A program made the position numbers and the translations under genes. From assembly GCF_017302985.1 (NCBI RefSeq), contig NZ_JAFIMU010000012.1:62001-126000 (forward strand): DNA of 64,000 nt, given 5' to 3'. Of the stretch, positions 14,312-24,647 are shown piece by piece. Each line of letters starts with the position of its first letter. Position 1 is the stretch's first letter. The DNA is from Corallococcus macrosporus (GTDB taxonomy: Bacteria; Myxococcota; Myxococcia; Myxococcales; Myxococcaceae). The notes under the pieces are model-generated. The model ran no database searches. It had not been told where the DNA came from and worked only from the letters and a program-made list of their open reading frames with translations.

Positions 14312-16612
14312 CTACGGCACCTTCGTGTTGAGCGACACGCCGCTCACGACCAGGGCGTAGTCCGCGTCCACCGCCGTCGTCTCCGTGCGCGCGTCCTGGA
14401 CCAGCTCCTCGGCCAGGACCTCCACCTTCCACGTGCCCGTGGCCGGGTTCGCGATGAAGACGTTCTCCACGGTGTCGACCTTGTTGGACACGCCTCCGGA
14501 CGTGGACACGTTGCCCGCCGTCAGGCCGTTGTTGCCCCAGTACACGGTGCCGTTGGGCGCCGTCACTCGCAGGGACAGGTCGTTGATGCGCGCCCGGGCC
14601 GCGCCCACCGTGCCCATGGGGTCCGTGTAGACCATCGTGACGTTGAGCTCCGTCTCACCGCTGGCCACGGCGAAGGTGTACGTCTTGGTGGCCAGCGGCG
14701 TGAGGACGTCCGTCTCGTCGACGACGAACGTCTTCGCCGCGCGGTCGTACAGGCGCTTCAGGTCGGACGTGCCCCAGCCCTGCTTGTTGCGGTCGATGTC
14801 CGCGTTGGCGCCGCCCGCGAGCCAGTTGTACTTCGCCGCGCCGTTGATCATCAGCGCCTTCGCCGTGGCCATCTGCGGGCGGCTGGTGAAGACGTCCGCC
14901 TTGCCGCCGTGGCCGGCCCACACGCCCTGGTGCCACATCTGGTGCAGGAGGCCGAAGTGGCCGGACGTCTGCGGCGTCGCGGAGCTGGTGCCGCTGAACT
15001 CCGTGTAGCTGCTGTCGGAGGAGCCGGACGCGCCCCGGATGCTGTCGTAGTAGAAGGCCAGGTCCGGCTTGATGCGGCCGTCCGCCGCCGGGCCGATGCT
15101 CGCGCCCGAGGACCAGCGGTCATCCGTGCGGGTCTGCGTGTTGTAGTGCCGGATGCCGCCCACGGAGACGATGTTCTTCGCCCACGCCTGCGGCCGCGAG
15201 TTGCGCGTGCCGCTGTTGCTCTGCGACTGCGTGCTCAACAGCGGCGCCTTGAAGAGGTAGTCGTCCACCTCCGCGGAGATGGTCGTGTACGACGTCGTCA
15301 GCGTGCTGCCCACGCTGGAGGTCTGGAACACCGCGCGGTACGGGCCGCTCGGGTTGATCAGCTCCTGGTTCGCCGTGTAGCGGGACTTGGTGCCGCCGAA
15401 CTGCGTGGACTCGCTGTAGAGGAAGAAGATGCCCTGCCCGGCCGGCAGCAGGCCCTTGGCCAGCGGATCCACGCCCTGGGCGAAGTTGTGGCTGTAGCAG
15501 CTGGTGCCGTGCAGCGAGCCGGAGGACGTGCCCACGCTGTGGATGATGGGCGCGGTGGGCCACTCGCGGTGGGTGGTGCGCAGCTCGGTGTCGAAGATCT
15601 CCCCGCGCACGCCCTGCCCCGTCCAGCCCTTGAGCCCCTGGATGTAGTTGGCGCCGCCCGTCTCACGCACGATGTCCATGTCCACCTCGCCGGGGCCACC
15701 CCAGCGGTCGATGAACTGCACCTCGTTGGCGCGCACGAGCGAGGCCAGTTGCTCCTGGCTGAGCGTGGCCTCCACGCGCAGGCCGCCCGGCTCCACCAGG
15801 TCCACCTTGCCGCCCAGCCGCTCCACCAGCGCCGTCACGCGGGCCTGCCGCGCGGCGCCGCGCTCGCCCAGCATGATGGAGTAGCGCTGGGGCGCCAGCG
15901 CCGCCGCGCGTCCGAGCAGCGCGTCCCGCAGCACCGGCTCCAGGCGCCATTCCGGGTGGTAGTCCCCCACCCAGCGCACGGCGGGCAGTTGGGCCACGCG
16001 CGCGCGGACCTCCGAGGGCATCTCCACCAGGTACGTGTGGTCCGACAGGAAGCGCAGCACCTTGCCGCCCGCGCTCTCGAGGGTCTCGCGGTACTCCGGC
16101 AGCGGCGTGGCGTGGAACTGCACCAGCGACAGCGCGTTGTCCCGGTCCGCCACCAGCGTGTTGCCCAGGAGCGGCGCGGTGCGCGCCAGCGGGTCGAAGG
16201 ACGCCTCCGCCAGCCGGATGAGGTACTCCTCCTGCTGCACGCGCCCCAGCAGCTCCGTGCCGCCGCGCGTGTACGCGGAGAAGGCGCGCTCCGTGCCGTC
16301 CGTCTGACGCTCACGCCAGACGTGCAGCTGGACGCCGGTGGCCTGCACCACGTCCAGGGTGCGCAGGGCGCTGACCGGCCGAGCCGTCTGGTGGAACACC
16401 AGCCCCGCCGGCGTCGCCAGCGTGGTGCCCCCCGCCTGGAGCGCCTTCGCCACCGCCGCGCCCGGGGCCGCCGGAGCCCGCGTCGCCGCTGAAGGGGTGC
16501 GCTCCACCGCGAGCGCGCCGGCAGGAACCGCGAGGGTGCAGCCCAGCACCAGCGCCGTCACCGGCCGCCAGCCACCACGAGACGTCGAGAACTGCTTCCG
16601 CATGTTCTGCAT
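14312..16612 (-). CDS. Secreted S8 family serine peptidase (subtilase) with C-terminal beta domain
   Basis: The start at 16612 has AAGGGAG upstream and gives a signal peptide after a basic N-terminus (hydrophobic VTALVLGCTLAVPAGALA). A propeptide-like region of about 250 residues follows. The catalytic triad is visible: Asp in GEIFDTEL, His in SLHGTSCYS, Ser in FSGTSSATPQTSGH. After the catalytic domain a beta-rich region (LNVTMVYTDPMGT to TGTWKVEVLAEE) resembles the proprotein-convertase P / pre-peptidase type domain often found in secreted subtilases. Total about 766 residues. Likely an extracellular protease for protein degradation or predation. The 251-base upstream region carries a GTAAT/ATTAC palindrome. 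Confidence 0.92.
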   Translation of the reverse strand: MQNMRKQFSTSRGGWRPVTALVLGCTLAVPAGALAVERTPSAATRAPAAPGAAVAKALQAGGTTLATPAGLVFHQTARPVSALRTLDVVQATGVQLHVWRERQTDGTERAFSAYTRGGTELLGRVQQEEYLIRLAEASFDPLARTAPLLGNTLVADRDNALSLVQFHATPLPEYRETLESAGGKVLRFLSDHTYLVEMPSEVRARVAQLPAVRWVGDYHPEWRLEPVLRDALLGRAAALAPQRYSIMLGERGAARQARVTALVERLGGKVDLVEPGGLRVEATLSQEQLASLVRANEVQFIDRWGGPGEVDMDIVRETGGANYIQGLKGWTGQGVRGEIFDTELRTTHREWPTAPIIHSVGTSSGSLHGTSCYSHNFAQGVDPLAKGLLPAGQGIFFLYSESTQFGGTKSRYTANQELINPSGPYRAVFQTSSVGSTLTTSYTTISAEVDDYLFKAPLLSTQSQSNSGTRNSRPQAWAKNIVSVGGIRHYNTQTRTDDRWSSGASIGPAADGRIKPDLAFYYDSIRGASGSSDSSYTEFSGTSSATPQTSGHFGLLHQMWHQGVWAGHGGKADVFTSRPQMATAKALMINGAAKYNWLAGGANADIDRNKQGWGTSDLKRLYDRAAKTFVVDETDVLTPLATKTYTFAVASGETELNVTMVYTDPMGTVGAARARINDLSLRVTAPNGTVYWGNNGLTAGNVSTSGGVSNKVDTVENVFIANPATGTWKVEVLAEELVQDARTETTAVDADYALVVSGVSLNTKVP

Positions 16613-16644
16613 TTCGGGCACTCCCTTCAAAGTGAGAAAAACCT

Positions 16645-16863: not shown

Positions 16864-17676
16864 ATGCATGACCTGAACGCGCTGGTCGGCACGCACGACC
16901 TGCTCTTCCTCACGCTGGACACGCTCCGTTACGACGTGGCCCGTGAGGCGCTGGAAGCAGGCCGCACCCCCACCCTGGCCGCGCTGCTGCCCGGCGGCCG
17001 GTGGGAGGAGCGCCACAGCCCGGCGAGCTTCACCTACGCCGCGCACCAGGCCTTCTTCGCGGGCTTCCTCCCCACCCCCGTCACCCCGGGGCGCCACCCG
17101 CGCCCCTTCGCCCTGCGCTTCGAGGGCAGCGAGACGACGGGCCCCGGCACCTGCGTGCTGGACGCGCCGGACCTCGTCACGGGCCTGGCCGGGCGCGGCT
17201 ATCACACGGTGTGTATTGGCGGGACGGGCTTCTTCAACCAGAAGAACCCCCTGGGCCGCGTGCTCCCGGGCCTCTTCTCCGAGGCGCACTGGGACCCCTC
17301 GCTGGGCGTCACCGATCCCCAATCCACGGAAAATCAGGCATCACTCGCGGTGAAAATCCTGGGCGCCCTGCCCCGGGAGCAGCGGGTGTTCCTGTTCATC
17401 AACGTCTCCGCGCTGCACCAGCCCAACCGGCACTACGTGCCCGGGGCGACGGAGGACTCGAAGGCGACGCAGGCGGCGGCGCTGGCGTACGTGGACGGCC
17501 AGCTCGGGCGACTGTTCCAGGCGCTGCGCCGGCGGGGCCCCTCCTTCTGCATCGTGTGCTCGGACCACGGGACGGCGTACGGCGAGGATGGCTACTCGGG
17601 CCACCGGCTGGGGCACCCGGTGGTGTGGACGGTGCCCTATGGCGAGTTCGTGCTGACGGTAGACTCCGCGCCATGA
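16864..17676 (+). CDS. STM4013/SEN3800 family hydrolase (alkaline phosphatase/sulfatase superfamily)
   Basis: First gene of the STM4011-STM4015 cassette. The 270-residue product has the metal-binding Asp block of the alkaline phosphatase superfamily (LLFLTLDTLRYD, Asp19), a nucleophile-region pattern ASFTYAAHQAFFAGFLP in which Thr57 is the probable nucleophile, and a C-terminal metal site CSDHGTAYGEDGYSGH. No signal peptide is seen, so it should act in the cytoplasm on a phosphorylated, sulfated or similar substrate. Its stop overlaps the start of the next gene (ATGA), as does that gene with the third, so the three plus-strand genes are translationally coupled. The physiological substrate is unknown. 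Confidence 0.85.
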   Translation: MHDLNALVGTHDLLFLTLDTLRYDVAREALEAGRTPTLAALLPGGRWEERHSPASFTYAAHQAFFAGFLPTPVTPGRHPRPFALRFEGSETTGPGTCVLDAPDLVTGLAGRGYHTVCIGGTGFFNQKNPLGRVLPGLFSEAHWDPSLGVTDPQSTENQASLAVKILGALPREQRVFLFINVSALHQPNRHYVPGATEDSKATQAAALAYVDGQLGRLFQALRRRGPSFCIVCSDHGTAYGEDGYSGHRLGHPVVWTVPYGEFVLTVDSAP

Positions 17677-18986
17677 CGCGCCTGGAGTCGATGCTCGAAG
17701 GGACGCCATACGTGGCGTACCTCTACGGCTACCCGCACAAGACGGCCTACCGGCCGCTGACGCCCGCGCTGCCGCTGGAGGACGTCTGGGCGAAGGAGCG
17801 GCGGGACGCGCTGTTCCTCTACCTGCACGTGCCCTTCTGCGAGATGCGCTGCGGGTTCTGCAACCTCTTCACCGCCGCGGGCCCGAAGGAGGACGTCGTC
17901 GCCGCGTGGCTCGGCGCGCTGAAGCGGGAGGCCCGCCGGGTGAAGGACGCGCTGGGGCCGGCCACGTTCGCGCGCGCGGCCATCGGCGGTGGCACCCCCA
18001 CCCTGCTGGACGTCGCGGGGCTGGAGACGGTGTTCGATCTGACGGCGGAGCTGGGCGTCGACCCGCGCGACGTGCCCATGTCCGTGGAGGTGTCGCCGGA
18101 GACGGTGGACGCGGACAAGGTCGCGCTCTTGAAGGCCCGGGGCGTGGACCGGGTGAGCATGGGCGTGCAGAGCTTCCTGGAGGCGGAGGTCGCCGCGGTG
18201 AAGCGGCCGCAGAAGACGGCCCAGGTGGAGGCCACGCTGGACCTCTTGCGCAGCGCGGGCTTCCCCACGCTCAACCTGGACCTCATCTACGGCATCGAGG
18301 GTCAGACGGTGGAGACGTTCCAGCACTCGCTGGCGGCGGCGCTGAAGTACGCGCCGGAGGAGCTGTACCTCTACCCGCTCTACGTGCGGCCCCTCACCTT
18401 CCTCGGCAAGAAGTCGCGCGCGTGGGACGACCTGCGGCTGTCGCTCTACCGGGCCGGCCGGGACTTCCTCCTGTCACGCGGCTACACGCAGGTGTCCATG
18501 CGGATGTTCCGCGCGGCGCACGCACCAGCGGCTCGCGGCGTGGTGTACCGCTGCCAGGAGGACGGCATGGTGGGCCTGGGCGTGGGGGCGCGCTCCTACG
18601 CGGGCGCGGTGCACTACTCGTCGGAGTACGCCGTGGCCTCGCGCGAGGTGCGCGGCATCATCCAGGCGTACGTCGAACGGGACGCGGCGTCGTTCGGCGA
18701 GGTGCGCTACGGCTTCGTGCTGGACGCGGCCGAGCAGCGCCACCGGCACCTGGTGCTGTCGCTGCTCGCGGAGGGCGTGGACCCGGGCGTGTACCGCCAG
18801 CGCTTCGGCACGGAGGCGAAGGCGGACTTCCCGATGCTCGCGGAGCTGGAGGCGCACGGGCTGGCTCGCGACGTGGACGGCGTGTTCCAGCTCACGCCCG
18901 CGGGCGTGGAGCGCTCGGACCTGATTGGCCCGTGGCTGGACTCCGAGGCGGTGCGCGCGCGCATGGCGGAGTACGCCTGGCGATGA
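17673..18986 (+). CDS. STM4012 family radical SAM protein (HemN/HemW-like)
   Basis: The 437-residue product has the radical SAM motif VPFCEMRCGFC (Cys56, Cys60, Cys63), IGGGTPTLL for SAM binding, RVSMGVQSF and DLIYGIEGQT, all in the arrangement of the HemN/HemW branch. The fourth Cys next to the cluster in HemN is absent, and the C-terminal part differs, so haem synthesis is not implied. It begins within the stop codon of the hydrolase gene and ends within the start of the STM4011 gene. In known genomes STM4012 proteins occur with STM4011, 4013, 4014 and 4015; the reaction is undescribed as far as I know. Confidence 0.88.
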   Translation: MTRLESMLEGTPYVAYLYGYPHKTAYRPLTPALPLEDVWAKERRDALFLYLHVPFCEMRCGFCNLFTAAGPKEDVVAAWLGALKREARRVKDALGPATFARAAIGGGTPTLLDVAGLETVFDLTAELGVDPRDVPMSVEVSPETVDADKVALLKARGVDRVSMGVQSFLEAEVAAVKRPQKTAQVEATLDLLRSAGFPTLNLDLIYGIEGQTVETFQHSLAAALKYAPEELYLYPLYVRPLTFLGKKSRAWDDLRLSLYRAGRDFLLSRGYTQVSMRMFRAAHAPAARGVVYRCQEDGMVGLGVGARSYAGAVHYSSEYAVASREVRGIIQAYVERDAASFGEVRYGFVLDAAEQRHRHLVLSLLAEGVDPGVYRQRFGTEAKADFPMLAELEAHGLARDVDGVFQLTPAGVERSDLIGPWLDSEAVRARMAEYAWR

Positions 18987-19882
18987 AGCTCACCGTGCTC
19001 TACCGGGGCCCGCTGTCCGGCTGCAACTACGGCTGCGAGTACTGCCCCTTCGGCAAGTGGAAGCAGAGCGAGGAGGAGCTCACGAAGGACCGCGCGGACC
19101 TGGAGCGGTTCCTCCAGTGGGTGGAGTCGCGCACGCAGGACACCGTGTCCGTCTTCTTCACGCCGTGGGGCGAGGCGCTCATCTGGCCCTGGTACCAGCA
19201 GGCCCTGGCGCGGCTGACGCACCTGCCGCACGTGGAGCGCGCGGCGGTGCAGACGAACCTCTCCTGTCGGCTGGACTGGCTCGGCGACTGCCGCACGGAG
19301 AAGCTGGGCATCTGGGCCACGTACCATCCGGAGTGGATGAAGCGCTCGCGCTTCCTGGCCCAGTGCGAGCAGTTGTCGGAGCACGGCGTGCGGCACAGCG
19401 CGGGCATGGTGGGCTTCCGGCGCTTCGCGGACGAGGCGGAGGCCCTGCGCCGCGAGCTGCCCGAGGACACGTACCTGTGGATCAACGCCGTGAAGGACGG
19501 CCTGGACGCGTACACGCCCGAGGACGTGGAGCGCTTCACGCGCATCGACCCGCTGTTCCCGGTGAACAACACCCGCCACCCCAGCCGGGGCCGCGCCTGC
19601 CGTGGCGGCGAGTCCGTGCTGTCCGTGGACGGTGACGGCACCGCGTACCGGTGCCACTTCATCAAGGAGCCGCTGGGCAACCTCTACGCGCCGGACTTCG
19701 ACGCGGCGCTGAAGCCGCGCCCGTGCTCGAAGGACACGTGCGGGTGTCACATCGGCTACGTGCACCTGGAGTACCTGGAGCTGGACCGCGTGTTCGGCTC
19801 GGGGCTCCTGGAGCGCGTGCCCGCGACGCGGCTGTGGACGGGCGGCGCTCAGCGCAGCGCTTCGCGTATCTCCCAGTCGTAG
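18983..19882 (+). CDS. STM4011 family radical SAM protein
   Basis: A 299-residue radical SAM protein with CNYGCEYC near the N-terminus (Cys14, Cys18, Cys21). A second group of cysteines lies in the C-terminal third (206, 224, 248, 253, 255; CSKDTCGC), which could bind an auxiliary iron-sulphur cluster as in SPASM/twitch enzymes. It starts in the stop codon of the STM4012 gene. Its last 34 bases overlap the end of the convergent STM4014-family gene. The presence of two radical SAM proteins with an ATP-grasp-like partner suggests modification of a small molecule or peptide, which is inference. Confidence 0.87.
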   Translation: MKLTVLYRGPLSGCNYGCEYCPFGKWKQSEEELTKDRADLERFLQWVESRTQDTVSVFFTPWGEALIWPWYQQALARLTHLPHVERAAVQTNLSCRLDWLGDCRTEKLGIWATYHPEWMKRSRFLAQCEQLSEHGVRHSAGMVGFRRFADEAEALRRELPEDTYLWINAVKDGLDAYTPEDVERFTRIDPLFPVNNTRHPSRGRACRGGESVLSVDGDGTAYRCHFIKEPLGNLYAPDFDAALKPRPCSKDTCGCHIGYVHLEYLELDRVFGSGLLERVPATRLWTGGAQRSASRISQS

Positions 19883-20994
19883 ACGGACAGCCCGTCGCGC
19901 GTGAGGCCGGGGAGCAGGTCCCCGAAGGCGTTCGCCTCCAGCACGCGGTGGCCGTGGAAGAAGTCCTCGAACATCAGGTCGATGCCCACGTGGAGGCAGT
20001 CGTGCGCGCGGGCCACGGCGCGGCAGCTCTCCATTGCGGCCTCCCGCTCGCGGGGCGGCACGGCGGCGTGGAACGCGTCCAGGTCTCCCCGGTAGCCGCC
20101 CAGGTGCAGGTTGGTGATGGGCAGGCGGCTCTGGCGCACGACGGTGAAGGCGGGCTCGCCGCGCACGGTGAGGACGCGGCAGTCGAACACGTCCCCGCCC
20201 AGCCGCGCCTTGGGCCGCGCCTCCTCCACCTGCGAGCCCTCGCGCAGGAGGAAGGCCAGCACCGCGTCCACCTCCCGCGCGTCCGTCACGCGGCGCACCT
20301 TGAGGGAGTTGAACCAGCCGGTGGCGCCCCGGTGCAGGCTGGTGAGCAGCGAGCCTCCGGCGCCCTCCGCCCTGCCCGGCCGGTACATCGCGAGGCATGA
20401 CGCCGAGGAGCCGCAGGACAGCTTCACGAACGCCTCGCGGAAGTCCGCCGCGCGCAGGGCCTGCCGCAGGGCTTCCGGCGTGGCCCCCGGAGGCAGGTCC
20501 AGGAACGGCGGCACGGGGATGCCCAGGCCCGCGTACCGGCGCGAGGTGATCCGCTTGTCGAACAGGTCCGCGATGGCGCCCGGCGAGGACAGCACGCGCC
20601 AGCGGGGACGCAGGGCGAACCGGGCGGACAGGTCCTCCAGCACGCGCAGGAAGCCCAGGTGGTGCTGCCGCGGACACAGCACGCGGCCGTGTTCATCCGG
20701 CAGCGCGGCCAGCGCTTCCGGCGTCACGGTGTCGCAGCCGGTGCCGAGCGCATCGGTGTAACCGCGCTGGAGGAAGGCCCGCTCCACGGCCGCGTCCTCG
20801 CCCGCCGCGTCGATGCGGACGATGCGCTCCGTGTCGGGCAGCTCCAGGAGGACGTCGGGGGCGCGGGCCACCGTCTCCCATGCCACCACGTGCGCGGGGG
20901 GAAGCCCGGCGCGGCCCAGGGCCTCCTGGAAGAGCGTGACGCGCCGGTTCCCGGGGTTGCCGATGATCAGGAACGGCGGCGCGGCGGACGGCAT
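19849..20994 (-). CDS. STM4014 family protein (ATP-grasp-like)
   Basis: A 381-residue product with an ATP-grasp organisation: an N-terminal Rossmann-like part (FLIIGNPGNRRVTLFQEALG), a Lys-bearing strand (EAFVKLSCGSSASC) and a C-terminal metal-binding end (HVGIDLMFEDFF, VLEANAFGDLLPGL). Such enzymes join a carboxylate to an amine or thiol through an acyl phosphate, but here the acceptor is unknown. It lies 9 bases after the STM4015-family gene on the same strand and overlaps the convergent STM4011 gene by 34 bases. The start has only a weak ribosome-binding sequence, so coupling to the upstream gene is likely. Confidence 0.85.
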   Translation of the reverse strand: MPSAAPPFLIIGNPGNRRVTLFQEALGRAGLPPAHVVAWETVARAPDVLLELPDTERIVRIDAAGEDAAVERAFLQRGYTDALGTGCDTVTPEALAALPDEHGRVLCPRQHHLGFLRVLEDLSARFALRPRWRVLSSPGAIADLFDKRITSRRYAGLGIPVPPFLDLPPGATPEALRQALRAADFREAFVKLSCGSSASCLAMYRPGRAEGAGGSLLTSLHRGATGWFNSLKVRRVTDAREVDAVLAFLLREGSQVEEARPKARLGGDVFDCRVLTVRGEPAFTVVRQSRLPITNLHLGGYRGDLDAFHAAVPPREREAAMESCRAVARAHDCLHVGIDLMFEDFFHGHRVLEANAFGDLLPGLTRDGLSVYDWEIREALR

Positions 20995-21003
20995 GGGGAC
21001 GGG

Positions 21004-22359
21004 CTACTCGCCCACGGCGGCGTAGCGCGACTCCTCGTCGTAGGGCGTGCGCTGGTTGCCGCTCGCCACGGCCTGGGCGACCTTCGCCACGGCCTTCTGC
21101 CCCTCCTTCGTGAGGAAGTTCTGGGTGACGTCCAGGGACTTGAGGTGCCCGAAGGCCTTGGCGTTCTCCGCCAGCGTCCGAGCGCCCTCGTCGGACATCG
21201 TGCCCATGGACAGGTCCAGCTCCTGGAGCTGCGCCAGGATCTTCGACTTCGGCAGCGCCGCGCACAGGTCGTCGGTGAACTCCGCGTTGCGCAGGCCCAG
21301 CTTGCGCAGGGCCGGCACGCCCTCCGCGTCGAGCAGGGGCTTCAAGTCCTTCACGCCGCCGCCCGCGCCGTAGTTCTCCTGGCCGAACCAGATCTCCAGT
21401 GACTCCAGCTTGGGCCACTTCGCCTTCACGATGTCCTTCACCGCGCCCAGGTGCAGGCCGCCCGTCTCCACCGTGAAGGAGCGCAGCTCCGGCAGGTCGA
21501 TCTTCCCGAAGTCCACCTCGCCGCCACGCACGCGCAGCTCCTGGAGCTGGGGGTAGACCTTGTAGAGCGGCTTGAGGTCGCCCACCTGCGTCCAGGAGAT
21601 CTCCGTCTCGTCGGGGAACTCGAAGTCGCCGATGAACAGCGAGCGCAGCGGCGGCGCGGGCTTCGCCTTCGCGAGCACCTCCAGCGTGTCGTCGTATTCG
21701 TTCTCGCCGTCGAAGCTGGCCATGCCGATCGTCAGCCGGCTCAGGAAGCGCGCGGAGGGATGGGCCAGCAGCTCGCCCAGCAGCTCCGGGATGTCCGCCA
21801 CCGAGTCGTAGTCCACCTGACCCACACGCGCTTCGCGGATGAAGCCCAGGTGCCACTCGAGCTTGAGCGACTCGTCGGAGACGGCCTCCGCCAGCGACTC
21901 GCCCAGCAGCTCGTCGGCGTGCTCCTCGATGAACTTCTCCGCCTTCTTGCGCGCGGCCGTGGCCGTGGCCGCGGGGGCGTCCAGCGCGGAGTGCTGGATC
22001 CGGATGAGCTCGGCGCGCGGATCGCCCTCGCCCTCGAGCCATGCGGCGTACGCGAGGTAGCCCTTCACGTCGTCGGGCTTCGCGAGGATGGCGGCCTCCA
22101 GGTCCGGGTTGACGGCGGACTCGGCGGTGGCCTCTTCCCCGTCGCCGTCCGACCCTTCGGCGAGCGTGTAGCCCTTGCGCTCCTTCTCGTGGATCTGCGC
22201 CTCGTAGGCCTTCTTCGCCTCGGCCTTTGAGTCGAACTCCTCGACCTTCTCCTGGCCGTCGGAGCCGATGCGGCCCCAGCGCTTGGTCAGCGTGGTGCCC
22301 TCCAGGGTGATCTCCCAGAACTTGCTGGAGCTGCCTTCGGTGAACTCGTAACGGGGCAT
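21004..22359 (-). CDS. STM4015 family LRR protein with N-terminal WGR and TIGR02996 domains
   Basis: The C-terminal 300 residues match the STM4015 family pattern: TEISWTQVGDLKPLY, LQELRVRGG, LESLEIWFGQENYG, LRKLGLRNAEFTDD, LDLSMGTMSDEGA and the terminal RYAAVGE, a ribonuclease-inhibitor-like leucine-rich repeat. In front are a WGR domain (residues about 1-70, with WGRIGSDGQ) and a repeat-companion TIGR02996 segment (LEAAILAKPDDVKGYLAYAA then WLEGEGDPRAELIR). The STM4015 members I know lack these, so this is a fusion. WGR domains are associated with PARP and nucleic-acid or NAD-linked proteins. Start at 22359 chosen because the WGR fold begins at once. First gene of the minus-strand half of the cassette. 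Confidence 0.85.
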   Translation of the reverse strand: MPRYEFTEGSSSKFWEITLEGTTLTKRWGRIGSDGQEKVEEFDSKAEAKKAYEAQIHEKERKGYTLAEGSDGDGEEATAESAVNPDLEAAILAKPDDVKGYLAYAAWLEGEGDPRAELIRIQHSALDAPAATATAARKKAEKFIEEHADELLGESLAEAVSDESLKLEWHLGFIREARVGQVDYDSVADIPELLGELLAHPSARFLSRLTIGMASFDGENEYDDTLEVLAKAKPAPPLRSLFIGDFEFPDETEISWTQVGDLKPLYKVYPQLQELRVRGGEVDFGKIDLPELRSFTVETGGLHLGAVKDIVKAKWPKLESLEIWFGQENYGAGGGVKDLKPLLDAEGVPALRKLGLRNAEFTDDLCAALPKSKILAQLQELDLSMGTMSDEGARTLAENAKAFGHLKSLDVTQNFLTKEGQKAVAKVAQAVASGNQRTPYDEESRYAAVGE

Positions 22360-22398: not shown

Positions 22399-23715
22399 TC
22401 AGGGGCGCAGCAGCACCAGCTCCACGCGGCGGTTGAGCTCCCGGCCCCGGGGAATCAGGTTGGGGGCCTTGGGGCTGCGGTCGCCCAGGCCCACGGCCTC
22501 CACGCGGGAGGGGGCCACTCCGGCGCGGATCAGCATGTCCGCCACGGCGCGGGCGCGGGCGTCGGAGAGGCTCTGACGCGCGGGCTCGGGGACTTCCTTC
22601 GAGTCGGTGTGGCCCTCGATGCGCAGGCGGGCCTTCGGGTCGCGCACGAGCAGGTCCACCGCCAGGTCCAGGCCCGCGAGCGCCGTCTTCGCGGGCACGG
22701 GCTTCTTCTCTTCGAAGCTCAGGGGCTCGGGCAGCTCGATGCGGCCCTCCTGCACCTTGGCGGCCTTGGCGGCCTTGGGCGCGGGCACCAGCGCGAAGGC
22801 CAGTGACGCCTCGGCGCCGGCGCTCAGCTCCACCTGGCGCGTCTGCGCGAGGAACCCGTCCGCGATGAGGTCCACGGTGTACGCACCCGCGGACAGCGGC
22901 ACGTCCTGCGGCTTGCGGCCGGGGACGGTGAGCTTCAGGGGCTCGCCGTTGCCGCGCACGAAGGCGGTGGCGTTGGTGGGCTTCTTCGACGTCACCTGGA
23001 GCCGCAGGCGGCTGGGCGCCACGGGCGTGCGCTCCACGGGCGGCGTCACGGAGACGACGGCCTGCGGGGGCTTCACGCCCGCGTCCGGCACGGCCGTGGG
23101 CTGGGTGACCTTCACCGGCGCGCCGGCGTCCACCGGGGACGGCTTCACGGGCGGGGGCGCGGTGGCGACGGTGGGCTCGTCCTTCAGCGGCTGGATCATC
23201 TCCGCGGTGACGGCGTGGGTGAGCTTGAGCTTGAGGCGCGGATCCGGCGCGTTGGGGACGACGGCGGGAGACGCCTTCACCACGACGCGCAGGCCGCGCT
23301 GGGTCTGGAAGCCGACGGACGCGGTGATCTTCCAGAGGAAGCCGTTGGTCTCGCTGAACAGGCTCCAGGAGCCGTTGGTGTACGTGACGCGCGAGACGAG
23401 GGTGTGCTCGCCGGGTTCGACCTTCAGGTTCGCGAGCCGGTGCACACCGGGCGCGTTGAGCTCCTCCAGCGACGGGACGGCGAGCGGTTCGCCATCCAGG
23501 AGGAAGTCGGTCTCCACGAGCCGGTAGCCGTCCTCGGGCTTGAAGCCGGCGAAGAGGACCTGCACCTCGGAGGGGGACTCGGGGACCATGTCGCGCAGCT
23601 GGCGTTCCAGCTCCGCGCGCACCTGTTCCTCGCGCGACGTTTCGGCCGCGAGCGCACCCGGGGCCAGGAGTCCGGCGAGGACCAGTGACCCGATCTTGAG
23701 GAAGGAGGAATCCAC
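22399..23715 (-). CDS. OmpA family outer-membrane/peptidoglycan-binding protein
   Basis: From the GTG at 23715 the 438-residue product begins with a signal peptide (hydrophobic IGSLVLAGLLAPGALA). A beta-rich domain of about 180 residues follows, then a Pro/Thr/Val-rich linker, a PEGA-like segment (GAYTVDLIADGFLAQTRQVE) and a C-terminal OmpA-like domain (RLRIEGHTDS, SLSDARARAVADML, GLGDRSP, LNRRVELVL) that binds peptidoglycan. It probably anchors the outer membrane or a periplasmic complex to the wall. A longer open frame extends upstream, but only this start gives a signal peptide. The gene is divergent from the HlyD-like gene with 179 bases between starts. Confidence 0.82.
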   Translation of the reverse strand: MDSSFLKIGSLVLAGLLAPGALAAETSREEQVRAELERQLRDMVPESPSEVQVLFAGFKPEDGYRLVETDFLLDGEPLAVPSLEELNAPGVHRLANLKVEPGEHTLVSRVTYTNGSWSLFSETNGFLWKITASVGFQTQRGLRVVVKASPAVVPNAPDPRLKLKLTHAVTAEMIQPLKDEPTVATAPPPVKPSPVDAGAPVKVTQPTAVPDAGVKPPQAVVSVTPPVERTPVAPSRLRLQVTSKKPTNATAFVRGNGEPLKLTVPGRKPQDVPLSAGAYTVDLIADGFLAQTRQVELSAGAEASLAFALVPAPKAAKAAKVQEGRIELPEPLSFEEKKPVPAKTALAGLDLAVDLLVRDPKARLRIEGHTDSKEVPEPARQSLSDARARAVADMLIRAGVAPSRVEAVGLGDRSPKAPNLIPRGRELNRRVELVLLRP

Positions 23716-23894
23716 GAGGCGCCACGCAGCATGGCACAAGGCGCCCCGGGACGATGCAGGGATACAGCGCTGTAGAGGGAGCAGGCGGGCGCGACGGGCC
23801 TGTAGTGAGTCGGCGGGTTGACGGCTTCGCGGTGAATCCCCCGTTCCATCCAGTCCTGGCGCGGGGAGGCGGGGATGGATCATCCTGGCCGCGC

Positions 23895-24647
23895 ATGGAT
23901 CCGCGGCCTGACGCCCCACCGACGCCTGTCCCCTCCTCTCCCAGGGTGCCCGCCCGCTTTTCACGGCGGGCATGGGCCTGGAGCGCGGTGGGAGCGGTGG
24001 CGACGCTGGGGGTGCTGGCGGGGATGGTGCGGGTGGAGCGCTCGGCGCGAGGCTCGGTGCTACTCGAACAGGGCGAGTGGGTGGACGTCCCGGCGCCGGC
24101 CGAGGGGCGTGTGATGTCGGTGGACGTGGGGCTGAGCGAGCCGGTCCAGGCCGGGCAGGTGCTGGCGAGGCTGGAGACGGCGGCGGGGAGCGCGGAGGTG
24201 GTGGCGCCCCTGTCGGCGATGGTGGGCCGGTTGTCGGTGACGAAGGGGGCTCGGGTCACGGCGGGGCAGCCGGTGGCGGCGCTGTTGAATCAGGACACGC
24301 TGCCGTCGCTGCACGCGGTGTTCCCCGGCGAGTATCGGCCGGAGCTGGCCCCGGGCATGACGCTGGAGTACCAGCTGTCAGGGATGCCGGTCCCCTTCGA
24401 GGCGGTCATCGAGAAGGTGGAGACCCCGGAGGCCTCGCTCCAGTACGCGAAGGCGCAGCTGCCGGGCAGCGACGCGTTCGAACAGGGAGCGGTGCTGGTC
24501 CAGGCGCACGTGCCGTCCCGCAACTACGAACGGGACGGCAAGCAGCGCGTCTACAAGGACGGCATGAAGGGCCGGGCCCGGGTGAAGCTGGGAACCCAGC
24601 GGCTCATCGTCGCGTGGTTCCCGGGCCTGCGTGATGCGCTGCCGTGA
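23895..24647 (+). CDS. HlyD-like membrane-anchored periplasmic protein
   Basis: A 250-residue product with a short cytoplasmic N-terminus rich in Pro/Arg, one membrane helix (AWSAVGAVATLGVLAGMV) and a biotinyl/lipoyl-like hybrid motif (WVDVPAPAEGRVMSVDVGLS, QAGQVLARLE, VVAPLSAMVGRLSVTKGARV). A beta-barrel-like end resembles truncated membrane-fusion proteins. There is no long coiled-coil hairpin and no ABC or TolC gene nearby, so it is not a standard type I secretion adaptor. It overlaps the following lipoprotein gene by 17 bases. Start at ATG 23895 chosen because the upstream part of the frame looks non-coding. Confidence 0.7.
   Translation: MDPRPDAPPTPVPSSPRVPARFSRRAWAWSAVGAVATLGVLAGMVRVERSARGSVLLEQGEWVDVPAPAEGRVMSVDVGLSEPVQAGQVLARLETAAGSAEVVAPLSAMVGRLSVTKGARVTAGQPVAALLNQDTLPSLHAVFPGEYRPELAPGMTLEYQLSGMPVPFEAVIEKVETPEASLQYAKAQLPGSDAFEQGAVLVQAHVPSRNYERDGKQRVYKDGMKGRARVKLGTQRLIVAWFPGLRDALP

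Follow-up and report, generated by a model that had tools for sequence, protein, structure and literature searches.

What is the substrate of the five-gene cassette STM4011-STM4015, and what is done to it? The cassette analyzed here lies in the window, that is, the whole stretch of 64,000 nucleotides of Corallococcus macrosporus DNA under study (contig NZ_JAFIMU010000012.1, positions 62,001 to 126,000 of the forward strand). It encodes two radical S-adenosylmethionine (SAM) enzymes, STM4011 and STM4012, a hydrolase of the alkaline phosphatase superfamily, STM4013, an ATP-grasp protein, STM4014, and a leucine-rich repeat (LRR) protein, STM4015; all five genes, as listed in an earlier note on this DNA, can be read in the window (Table 1). 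No paper on function was found for the STM4011-4015 locus tags, the NCBIfam or domain names, or the solved STM4015 homolog of Bacteroides fragilis (2RA8/Q64V53), in a search outside of which most subscription papers lie. The locus tags are mentioned in two published tables, one that lists sigma54 sites and one from a study of positive selection, neither of which is concerned with function. We propose that the cassette is probably a protein-templated modification system in which the substrate is the C-terminal tail of STM4015. The earlier note had guessed that a small molecule or peptide is made or modified, which fits this proposal in kind; the likely substrate, the STM4015 tail, was missed there. 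Naming the tail as the substrate gives a long-unexplained cassette a concrete, testable protein-tail chemistry. If the proposal is true, LRR proteins would join the scaffolds for chemistry on a C-terminal Glu, the RimK/LysX ligase group would be linked to radical SAM enzymes, and a single modification would be common to many phyla.

The C-terminal tail of STM4015 proteins

By sequence comparison, the STM4015 proteins share a previously undescribed C-terminal tail, R-[YF]-x-A-V-[GS]-Glu-stop. Glu is the last residue of all eight STM4015 proteins in an initial alignment, which spans seven genera and six phyla. The wider survey (below, L-numbers denote surveyed loci and G-numbers surveyed genomes) yielded 129 STM4015 matches; two that run off the contig were dropped and the 127 kept correspond to 120 distinct ends (L001-L120), which include many close relatives from Corallococcus, Myxococcus and Streptomyces. 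The terminal residue is Glu in 117 of these ends, Asp in two and Gly in one; among the named records alone, 102 of 105 ends carry Glu. In the other families of the same loci, terminal Glu is found in 5 of 106 STM4011, 2 of 105 STM4013, 0 of 106 STM4012 and 0 of 78 STM4014 proteins. Upstream of the terminal residue, 106 of the 120 ends have Arg at -7 and 111 have Tyr or Phe at -6; Ala (-4), Val (-3) and Gly or Ser (-2) are found in 86, 90 and 89 ends, respectively, and the stretch that precedes the tail is rich in Asp and Glu and poorly conserved. Alignment A8 (44 rows, 25% mean column identity) has nine invariant columns, one of which is the terminal Glu. The rows of A8 were chosen: besides that of the window, they comprise 43 out of 58 STM4015 stretches in 43 selected loci. 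Among the 15 stretches left out are copies from L049 and L074 that lack the terminal Glu, which means that the last column is invariant partly through the choice of rows and that 117 of 120 is the fair count.

The window protein itself scores 239.3 bits against the STM4015 family NF038076, under the curated cut-off of 275, but is homologous to STM4015 across the LRR body and the tail; hence we call it STM4015-like. The other four proteins are well above their curated NCBIfam cut-offs, with 423.2 bits versus 250 for STM4013, 595.1 versus 380 for STM4012, 408.2 versus 200 for STM4011 and 359.4 versus 175 for STM4014. Thus, the description of the set as complete stands by family score for four names, and for STM4015 by homology only. 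There is a single match to STM4011 and a single match to STM4015 in the C. macrosporus genome, a weak second STM4015 stretch falling within the same gene, and the tail pattern occurs at only one site in the 9.8 Mb of this genome, the 3' end of the STM4015-like gene.

The AlphaFold model of the STM4015-like protein (predicted local distance difference test score, pLDDT, 92.6) has as its best PDB fold match 2ra8, which is B. fragilis Q64V53, a solved STM4015 homolog with a WGR part and LRR that was deposited as an uncharacterised protein. The alignment with 2ra8 extends up to residue 354 of 362, and the aligned stretch ends in SYPMITE. Whereas the tail is constant, the N-termini of STM4015-type proteins vary: among 36 rows, a WGR-containing model is matched in 8, TIGR02996 in 6 and DNA-ligase models in 1. 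In this set, the protein matched by DNA-ligase models is also matched by exonuclease models, which we take to reflect, perhaps, a BRCT-like domain in the place of WGR.

Tail and enzymes across genomes

The tail and the cassette enzymes can be followed separately where one of them is missing. Among 150 Streptomyces genomes, STM4011 is over the cut-off in 70, STM4015 is found in 72, and 68 have both. In each of these 68 genomes, one or more STM4015 matches reach the final position of the profile; 35 of the 68 were read letter by letter, and every one of these contains a copy ending in Glu. In the four genomes that have STM4015 without STM4011 over the cut-off, the tail is lost in all four: STM4015 ends in SVGPLTY in G223, RYVSIAV in G266 and SICVEGLP in G293, and in G265 the frame is stopped before the tail, the residue before the stop happening to be Glu. 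Broken or remnant STM4011 genes are found in G265 and G293, the better piece in G265 scoring 175 bits versus the cut-off of 200. If all 68 genomes with both genes are taken as tailed, the probability that the four tail-less genomes are the four STM4011-less ones among 72 is 1 in 1,028,790 (calculated by hand and uncorrected for shared ancestry). These sequences support the view that upkeep of the tail tracks the cassette enzymes, with two exceptions in Myxococcota, G012 and G162.

The 193 Myxococcota genomes provide a second comparison. STM4011 is over the cut-off in 61 of them and STM4014 in 60, the two sets being identical except for G178, an assembly that is 78% complete. The co-occurrence across genomes on which the earlier note had staked its reading is thereby borne out. 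An STM4015-type match (E<=1e-8) is present in all 61 STM4011-positive genomes and, conversely, in 11 of the 193 in which STM4011 is not over the cut-off. Nine of these 11 orphans were examined, G118 and G166 being left out, and the tail is kept in two. The orphan set is weaker evidence than that from Streptomyces because several of the other orphans are remote homologs. At the DNA level, 59 of the 61 STM4011-positive genomes contain the tail pattern at least once, and the matches in these 61 genomes total 124 versus 43 for the reversed control; in the other 132 genomes, there are 46 matches (35 genomes) versus 72 for the control. All these totals are hand sums, and the pattern over-counts because TGG is accepted as well as a stop. 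Ten regions with the pattern were retrieved and nine tail-ended open reading frames (ORFs) read, three of which match the LRR profile. The remaining six were considered as non-LRR carriers and rejected as short, fragments or likely chance, apart from one ORF, L227:2460-2927, described below.

Several observations weigh against a tail that is universal and bound to the enzymes. L049, L064 and L074 each contain one STM4015 copy without terminal Glu, next to other copies at the locus in which Glu is terminal, and in Salmonella and Bacteroides STM4015 keeps the terminal Glu but not the R and Y. Among Streptomyces, G213 (in which the STM4011 match is truncated) and G299 have STM4011 but no STM4015 match, and the STM4011-positive G229, G276 and G234 contain extra STM4015 copies without the tail. 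In the STM4011-positive Myxococcota whose STM4015 regions were retrieved, tail-less copies are present in G102, G108, G110, G115, G125, G126 and G069, and one such copy each in G074, G113 and G135. Conversely, G012 (93% complete) has a tailed STM4015 homolog, and G162 (89% complete) a tailed ORF of 166 residues, with no STM4011 over the cut-off and no STM4013 match in either genome; unless incomplete drafts account for the missing genes, both are genuine exceptions. Finally, the ORF in L227 (G126) encodes 155 residues with no LRR match and a good tail, RYVAVGE; it is either a frame-shifted remnant or a non-LRR substrate.

Loss of the tail once the enzymes are lost would also be accounted for if the tail only bound a cassette enzyme, or capped the LRR fold, and was left chemically unchanged. 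We consider this unlikely: a tag for docking leaves unexplained both the Glu at the very last position and the presence of a ligase of the class that acts on C-terminal Glu.

Enzyme classes and the proposed chemistry

The earlier note described STM4014 as ATP-grasp-like, which holds; among ATP-grasp proteins, the best-matching group is RimK/LysX/ArgX. RimK extends ribosomal protein S6 by Glu residues, acting on the protein C-terminus. When the STM4014 profile is compared with PDB, the first five sequences are LysX (1uc8, 1.7e-6; 3vpd) and RimK (5zct, 4.1e-6; 4iwx), and the local alignments cover the D-x-R and R...TN segments. The AlphaFold2 model of STM4014 (pLDDT 95.0, predicted template modelling score, pTM, 0.92) retrieves in Foldseek, at rank 1, ArgX complexed with LysW (E 6.5e-11), followed by RimK and PsnB rows. 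In VIA-align, in which Z values less than 1 apart count as tied, the top 8 rows are all ArgX, RimK, LysX or Thermococcus LysX/ArgX (Z 23.3-22.1); the best row is ArgX (Z 23.3, root-mean-square deviation 2.6, 267 aligned), and the RimK rows range from Z 23.1 to 22.3 with 271-276 aligned. K147, K191, D339 and N355 are invariant in the 44 rows of alignment A6 (all 43 stretches plus that of the window). This class assignment has to be weighed against the following: the best VIA-align row is only 2.1 above the first other ATP-grasp fold (Z 21.2), with which the eighth RimK/LysX row (Z 22.1) is tied; biotin carboxylases come next in the profile search (5.6e-5) and D-Ala ligases lower in Foldseek; and STM4014, with 381 residues, exceeds LysX (280) by about 100. 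Given the small lead in Z under the tie rule, the RimK/LysX/ArgX class is favoured, not proven, as the closest among PDB sequence and fold matches of the model.

LysX attaches an amino group to the Glu at the end of LysW (C-terminus EDWGE) through its gamma-carboxyl, and an E54A change in the ArgW carrier leads to arginine auxotrophy (PMC10433800). By analogy with RimK on S6 and LysX/ArgX on LysW, STM4014 would activate a carboxylate of the STM4015 terminal Glu as an acyl phosphate and couple the activated Glu to an amine or amino acid. The LRR body would serve as the docking or scaffold part.

The likeness to the LysW and ArgW systems suggests that the LRR protein could be a recyclable carrier, with a small molecule built on the C-terminal Glu and then released, as lysine is on LysW. 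A carrier-type protein that ends in Glu after a short conserved motif and a RimK-like ATP-grasp ligase are common to both; the STM4014 model ranks ArgX, RimK and LysX first, and the linker ahead of the STM4015 tail is often acidic. However, LysW is a small Zn-binding protein with Glu54 as the last residue, whereas STM4015 is an LRR protein of several hundred residues without a LysW-type Zn ribbon (the window STM4015-like protein has one Cys, by eye). The motifs differ as well (EDWGE versus RYxAV[GS]E), as do the partners, LysZ/Y/J/K in the one case and two radical SAM enzymes with a hydrolase in the other, and the cassette genomes often have several scaffold copies. Furthermore, no peptidase or protease, and no exporter, was recognised by eye among the neighbor clusters present in at least six taxon groups. 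Release from such a carrier can be regarded as a tentative alternative, on the doubtful side.

The number of tailed proteins per cassette bears on the same question. In G182, a draft that is 80% complete, there are 13 tailed ORFs on 12 contigs with one STM4011 match and one STM4013 match, which is odd for a recyclable carrier. Scattered tailed copies are likewise found in G126, G184 and G069, and several Streptomyces have further tailed copies elsewhere in the genome. Within the stretch around the cassette, to which these counts apply, the 71 named loci with a Glu-ending copy hold one tailed copy in 47 cases, two in 20, three in 3 and four in 1. The many tailed LRR proteins per genome favor retention of the finished group on the LRR protein over its release. 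The tail would then bear a lasting prosthetic group with which one or many LRR proteins act, a plausible reading that we nevertheless stop short of calling probable. It is in keeping with the 13 tailed ORFs in G182, the two to four Glu-ending copies in 24 of the 71 loci, and the N-terminal parts that vary while the tail is constant; yet copy number might rise for carriers or precursors as well, and the G182 figure comes from an incomplete draft.

The radical SAM enzymes suggest a different fate of the tail. CX3CX2C together with CX(9-15)GX4C is the pattern of SPASM/twitch auxiliary clusters. In STM4011, C14, C18, C21, C206, C224, C248, C253 and C255 are invariant, and C14-C18-C21 (CX3CX2C) plus C206, G219 and C224 fit this pattern, in 38 chosen rows (alignment A9, 37 of 42 stretches plus that of the window). 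Pfam SPASM is matched by 21 of the 38 members at E<=0.5 (best 0.00052), the window protein not being among them, and only one PDB profile match reaches E<=0.01, that to SkfB, a peptide-modifying enzyme (0.0042, weak), in the auxiliary-cluster region. A ribosomally synthesized and post-translationally modified peptide (RiPP) with a giant LRR leader would account for a SPASM-like STM4011, for the SkfB-like region, and for a short conserved C-terminal segment behind a variable linker; the last residues would be the core peptide, modified by radical SAM chemistry and then cut off. This is improbable in our view, given that the tail segment is nearly identical across phyla, whereas most RiPP cores vary more, that neither a protease nor an exporter was recognised by eye among the recurrent neighbor clusters, and that one genome would hold 13 leaders for a single core. 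The earlier note also suggested a search for a conserved small precursor gene near the cassette. None emerged across the loci: among 3049 ORFs of 18-75 amino acids (aa) that lie no more than 2 kb from the cassette in L032-L120, there is no family in more than four taxon groups, and the largest families look like shadow ORFs of the DUF6745 pair of genes described below.

The STM4012 profile matches HemN (1olt, 2.2e-59) and NocN (9p2u, 3.8e-38). The fourth Cys of HemN is missing in STM4012, where HemN CHKLCYFCGC is aligned to the consensus CemrCGfCnL.

STM4013 scores 33.6 bits against Pfam Sulfatase (cut-off 25), and its profile has part-length matches to sulfatases, nucleotide pyrophosphatases and phosphoethanolamine transferases. 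D19, T57, H185, D234, H235 and H247 are invariant in 40 chosen rows, and T57 is presumably the nucleophile; alignments A7 (STM4013) and A10 comprise 39 of 40 and 37 of 41 stretches, respectively, in each case plus that of the window. With a SPASM-like STM4011 and a hydrolase that matches sulfatases, the cassette could in principle be a case of sulfatase maturation, in which STM4011 makes formylglycine on the sulfatase-fold STM4013 as anaerobic sulfatase-maturing enzymes do. Formylglycine formation requires Cys or Ser; residues 50-70 of STM4013 contain no invariant Cys or Ser in the same 40 rows, T57 being the invariant residue, and STM4014 and STM4015 would be left unaccounted for, which makes this reading very improbable indeed.

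In the modification of the STM4015 tail that we propose, the least certain steps are those after the ligase. STM4011 and STM4012 might act on whatever STM4014 has added, or on the neighboring R-Y/F residues; STM4013, with a HAD phosphatase in some genomes, might remove or transfer a phosphate- or sulfate-type group. For the radical SAM and hydrolase steps, and for what the group is, enzyme class is the sole constraint, and our suggestions are guesses. In its most specific form, the model holds that LRR proteins with a common ...AV[GS]E tail are loaded on the terminal Glu by a ligase of the RimK/LysX type, and that two radical SAM enzymes turn the loaded end into the same prosthetic group in all of them. 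A single cassette would then serve between one and at least 13 LRR proteins of a genome, across Bacteroidota, Salmonella, Streptomyces, cyanobacteria and myxobacteria. We put this version forward with some hesitation, as a possibility.

Known systems resemble parts of the proposed scheme. RimK has the ATP-grasp fold in common with the STM4014 model, whereas STM4014 is adjoined by a dedicated LRR partner and by radical SAM enzymes. Graspetide ligases form side-chain macrocycles in small precursors; those of the PsnB type are ATP-grasp enzymes that act on a ribosomal peptide and are among the top Foldseek rows of STM4014, but no small precursor was found near the cassette. In the pearlins, amino acids such as 3-thiaglutamate are grown on the C-terminus of a carrier peptide with radical-SAM tailoring (PMC9303977). 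The proposed model is similar in that a group is grown and tailored by radical SAM enzymes at a carrier C-terminus. The pearlin systems use a PEARL (tRNA-dependent peptide ligase), for which none of the five cassette proteins has a Pfam match at E<=0.1, and the scaffold of the cassette is an LRR protein.

Gene order, neighbors and distribution

The three plus-strand genes of the window cassette are joined by ATGA overlaps, as previously reported, at 17673-17676 (STM4013/STM4012) and 18983-18986 (STM4012/STM4011). The 3' ends of STM4011 and STM4014 share 34 bases, and the order on the minus strand is the STM4015-like gene followed by STM4014. The cassette is flanked by genes for a secreted subtilisin-like protease (14312-16630, minus strand) and a protein with an OmpA-like C-terminus (22399-23973, minus strand), identified by eye, which have no evident link to it. 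Rfam at the gathering score has no match in the window, and the cassette proteins match PADLOC anti-phage defence models only weakly and in part (best 4.7e-08 over 102 residues).

Table 1. Genes of the window cassette and the domains and tail of the STM4015-like protein
Feature	Positions in the window	Strand	Details
STM4013/SEN3800-family hydrolase, alkaline-phosphatase/sulfatase superfamily	16864-17676	+	270 aa, P0001, NF038075
STM4012-family radical SAM enzyme, HemN-like	17673-18986	+	437 aa, P0002, NF006067
STM4011-family radical SAM enzyme, C-terminal SPASM/twitch-like Cys pattern	18983-19882	+	299 aa, P0003, NF038073
STM4014-family ATP-grasp protein, RimK/LysX/ArgX-like	19849-20994	-	381 aa, P0004, NF038074
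STM4015-like protein (WGR + TIGR02996 + LRR), proposed substrate/scaffold	21004-22359	-	451 aa, P0005
WGR domain of STM4015-like protein, residues 6-66	22162-22344	-	Pfam PF05406, 66.4 bits, cut-off 22
TIGR02996 domain of STM4015-like protein, residues 85-124	21988-22107	-	47.7 bits, cut-off 29.05
C-terminal tail RYAAVGE of STM4015-like protein	21007-21027	-	read from sequence; stop codon 21004-21006 directly after

Among ORFs of at least 70 aa near the cassettes, a DUF6745 protein and a protein of about 100 aa each recur in 15 taxon groups and in 34 loci (phmmer). The DUF6745 protein has LRR-like repeats (examples include L032:7884-9214 and L053:5223-6694), and the two proteins have conserved C-termini of their own, ..Y.P..ET and ..QREY.P..R.V.D. 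A HAD hydrolase is found beside the cassette in 13 loci, 8 of them Myxococcus-like (phmmer); examples of the HAD phosphatase are L037:8834-9568, L036:7965-9530 and L043:6017-6799. A Cof-type HAD adjoins STM4011 in Salmonella, and an apparent STM4011-HAD fusion is found in Bacteroides finegoldii. Since the DUF6745, ~100-aa and HAD partners are not universal and have no phmmer match in the window, they form no part of the core model.

The broad conservation that had been noted, from Salmonella to actinobacteria, extends well past these groups. In a scan of one genome per species, there are at least 592 pattern matches, at least 582 of which encode a relative; the best 80 were retained. STM4011 relatives are also present on plasmids of Deinococcus, Streptomyces, Embleya, Nonomuraea, Methylobacterium, Paenibacillus, Bacteroides and Salmonella (13 records). 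All five genes lie inside the examined stretch in 67 of the 89 named STM4011 loci (L032-L120). The commonest order is 4015-4014-4013-4012-4011 on one strand (43 loci), and the split order of the window comes second (12 loci).

A few loci stand apart. All five genes are present, in order, at L120:1318-7161 on an 18.7 kb contig of the IMG/VR viral collection, which perhaps is bacterial DNA misplaced among viral records, or else carries the cassette as cargo; apart from it, the viral collection contains 28 loci with weak matches to the radical SAM part. The B. finegoldii plasmid cassette (L036:5513-9530) has a short STM4013 remnant and no STM4012 match and may be decayed or reduced. Finally, L048, titled Comamonas sp. 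KCTC 72670, contains a Myxococcus-like cassette with the same neighbor clusters as the Myxococcus loci, and the assembly is probably mislabelled or contaminated.

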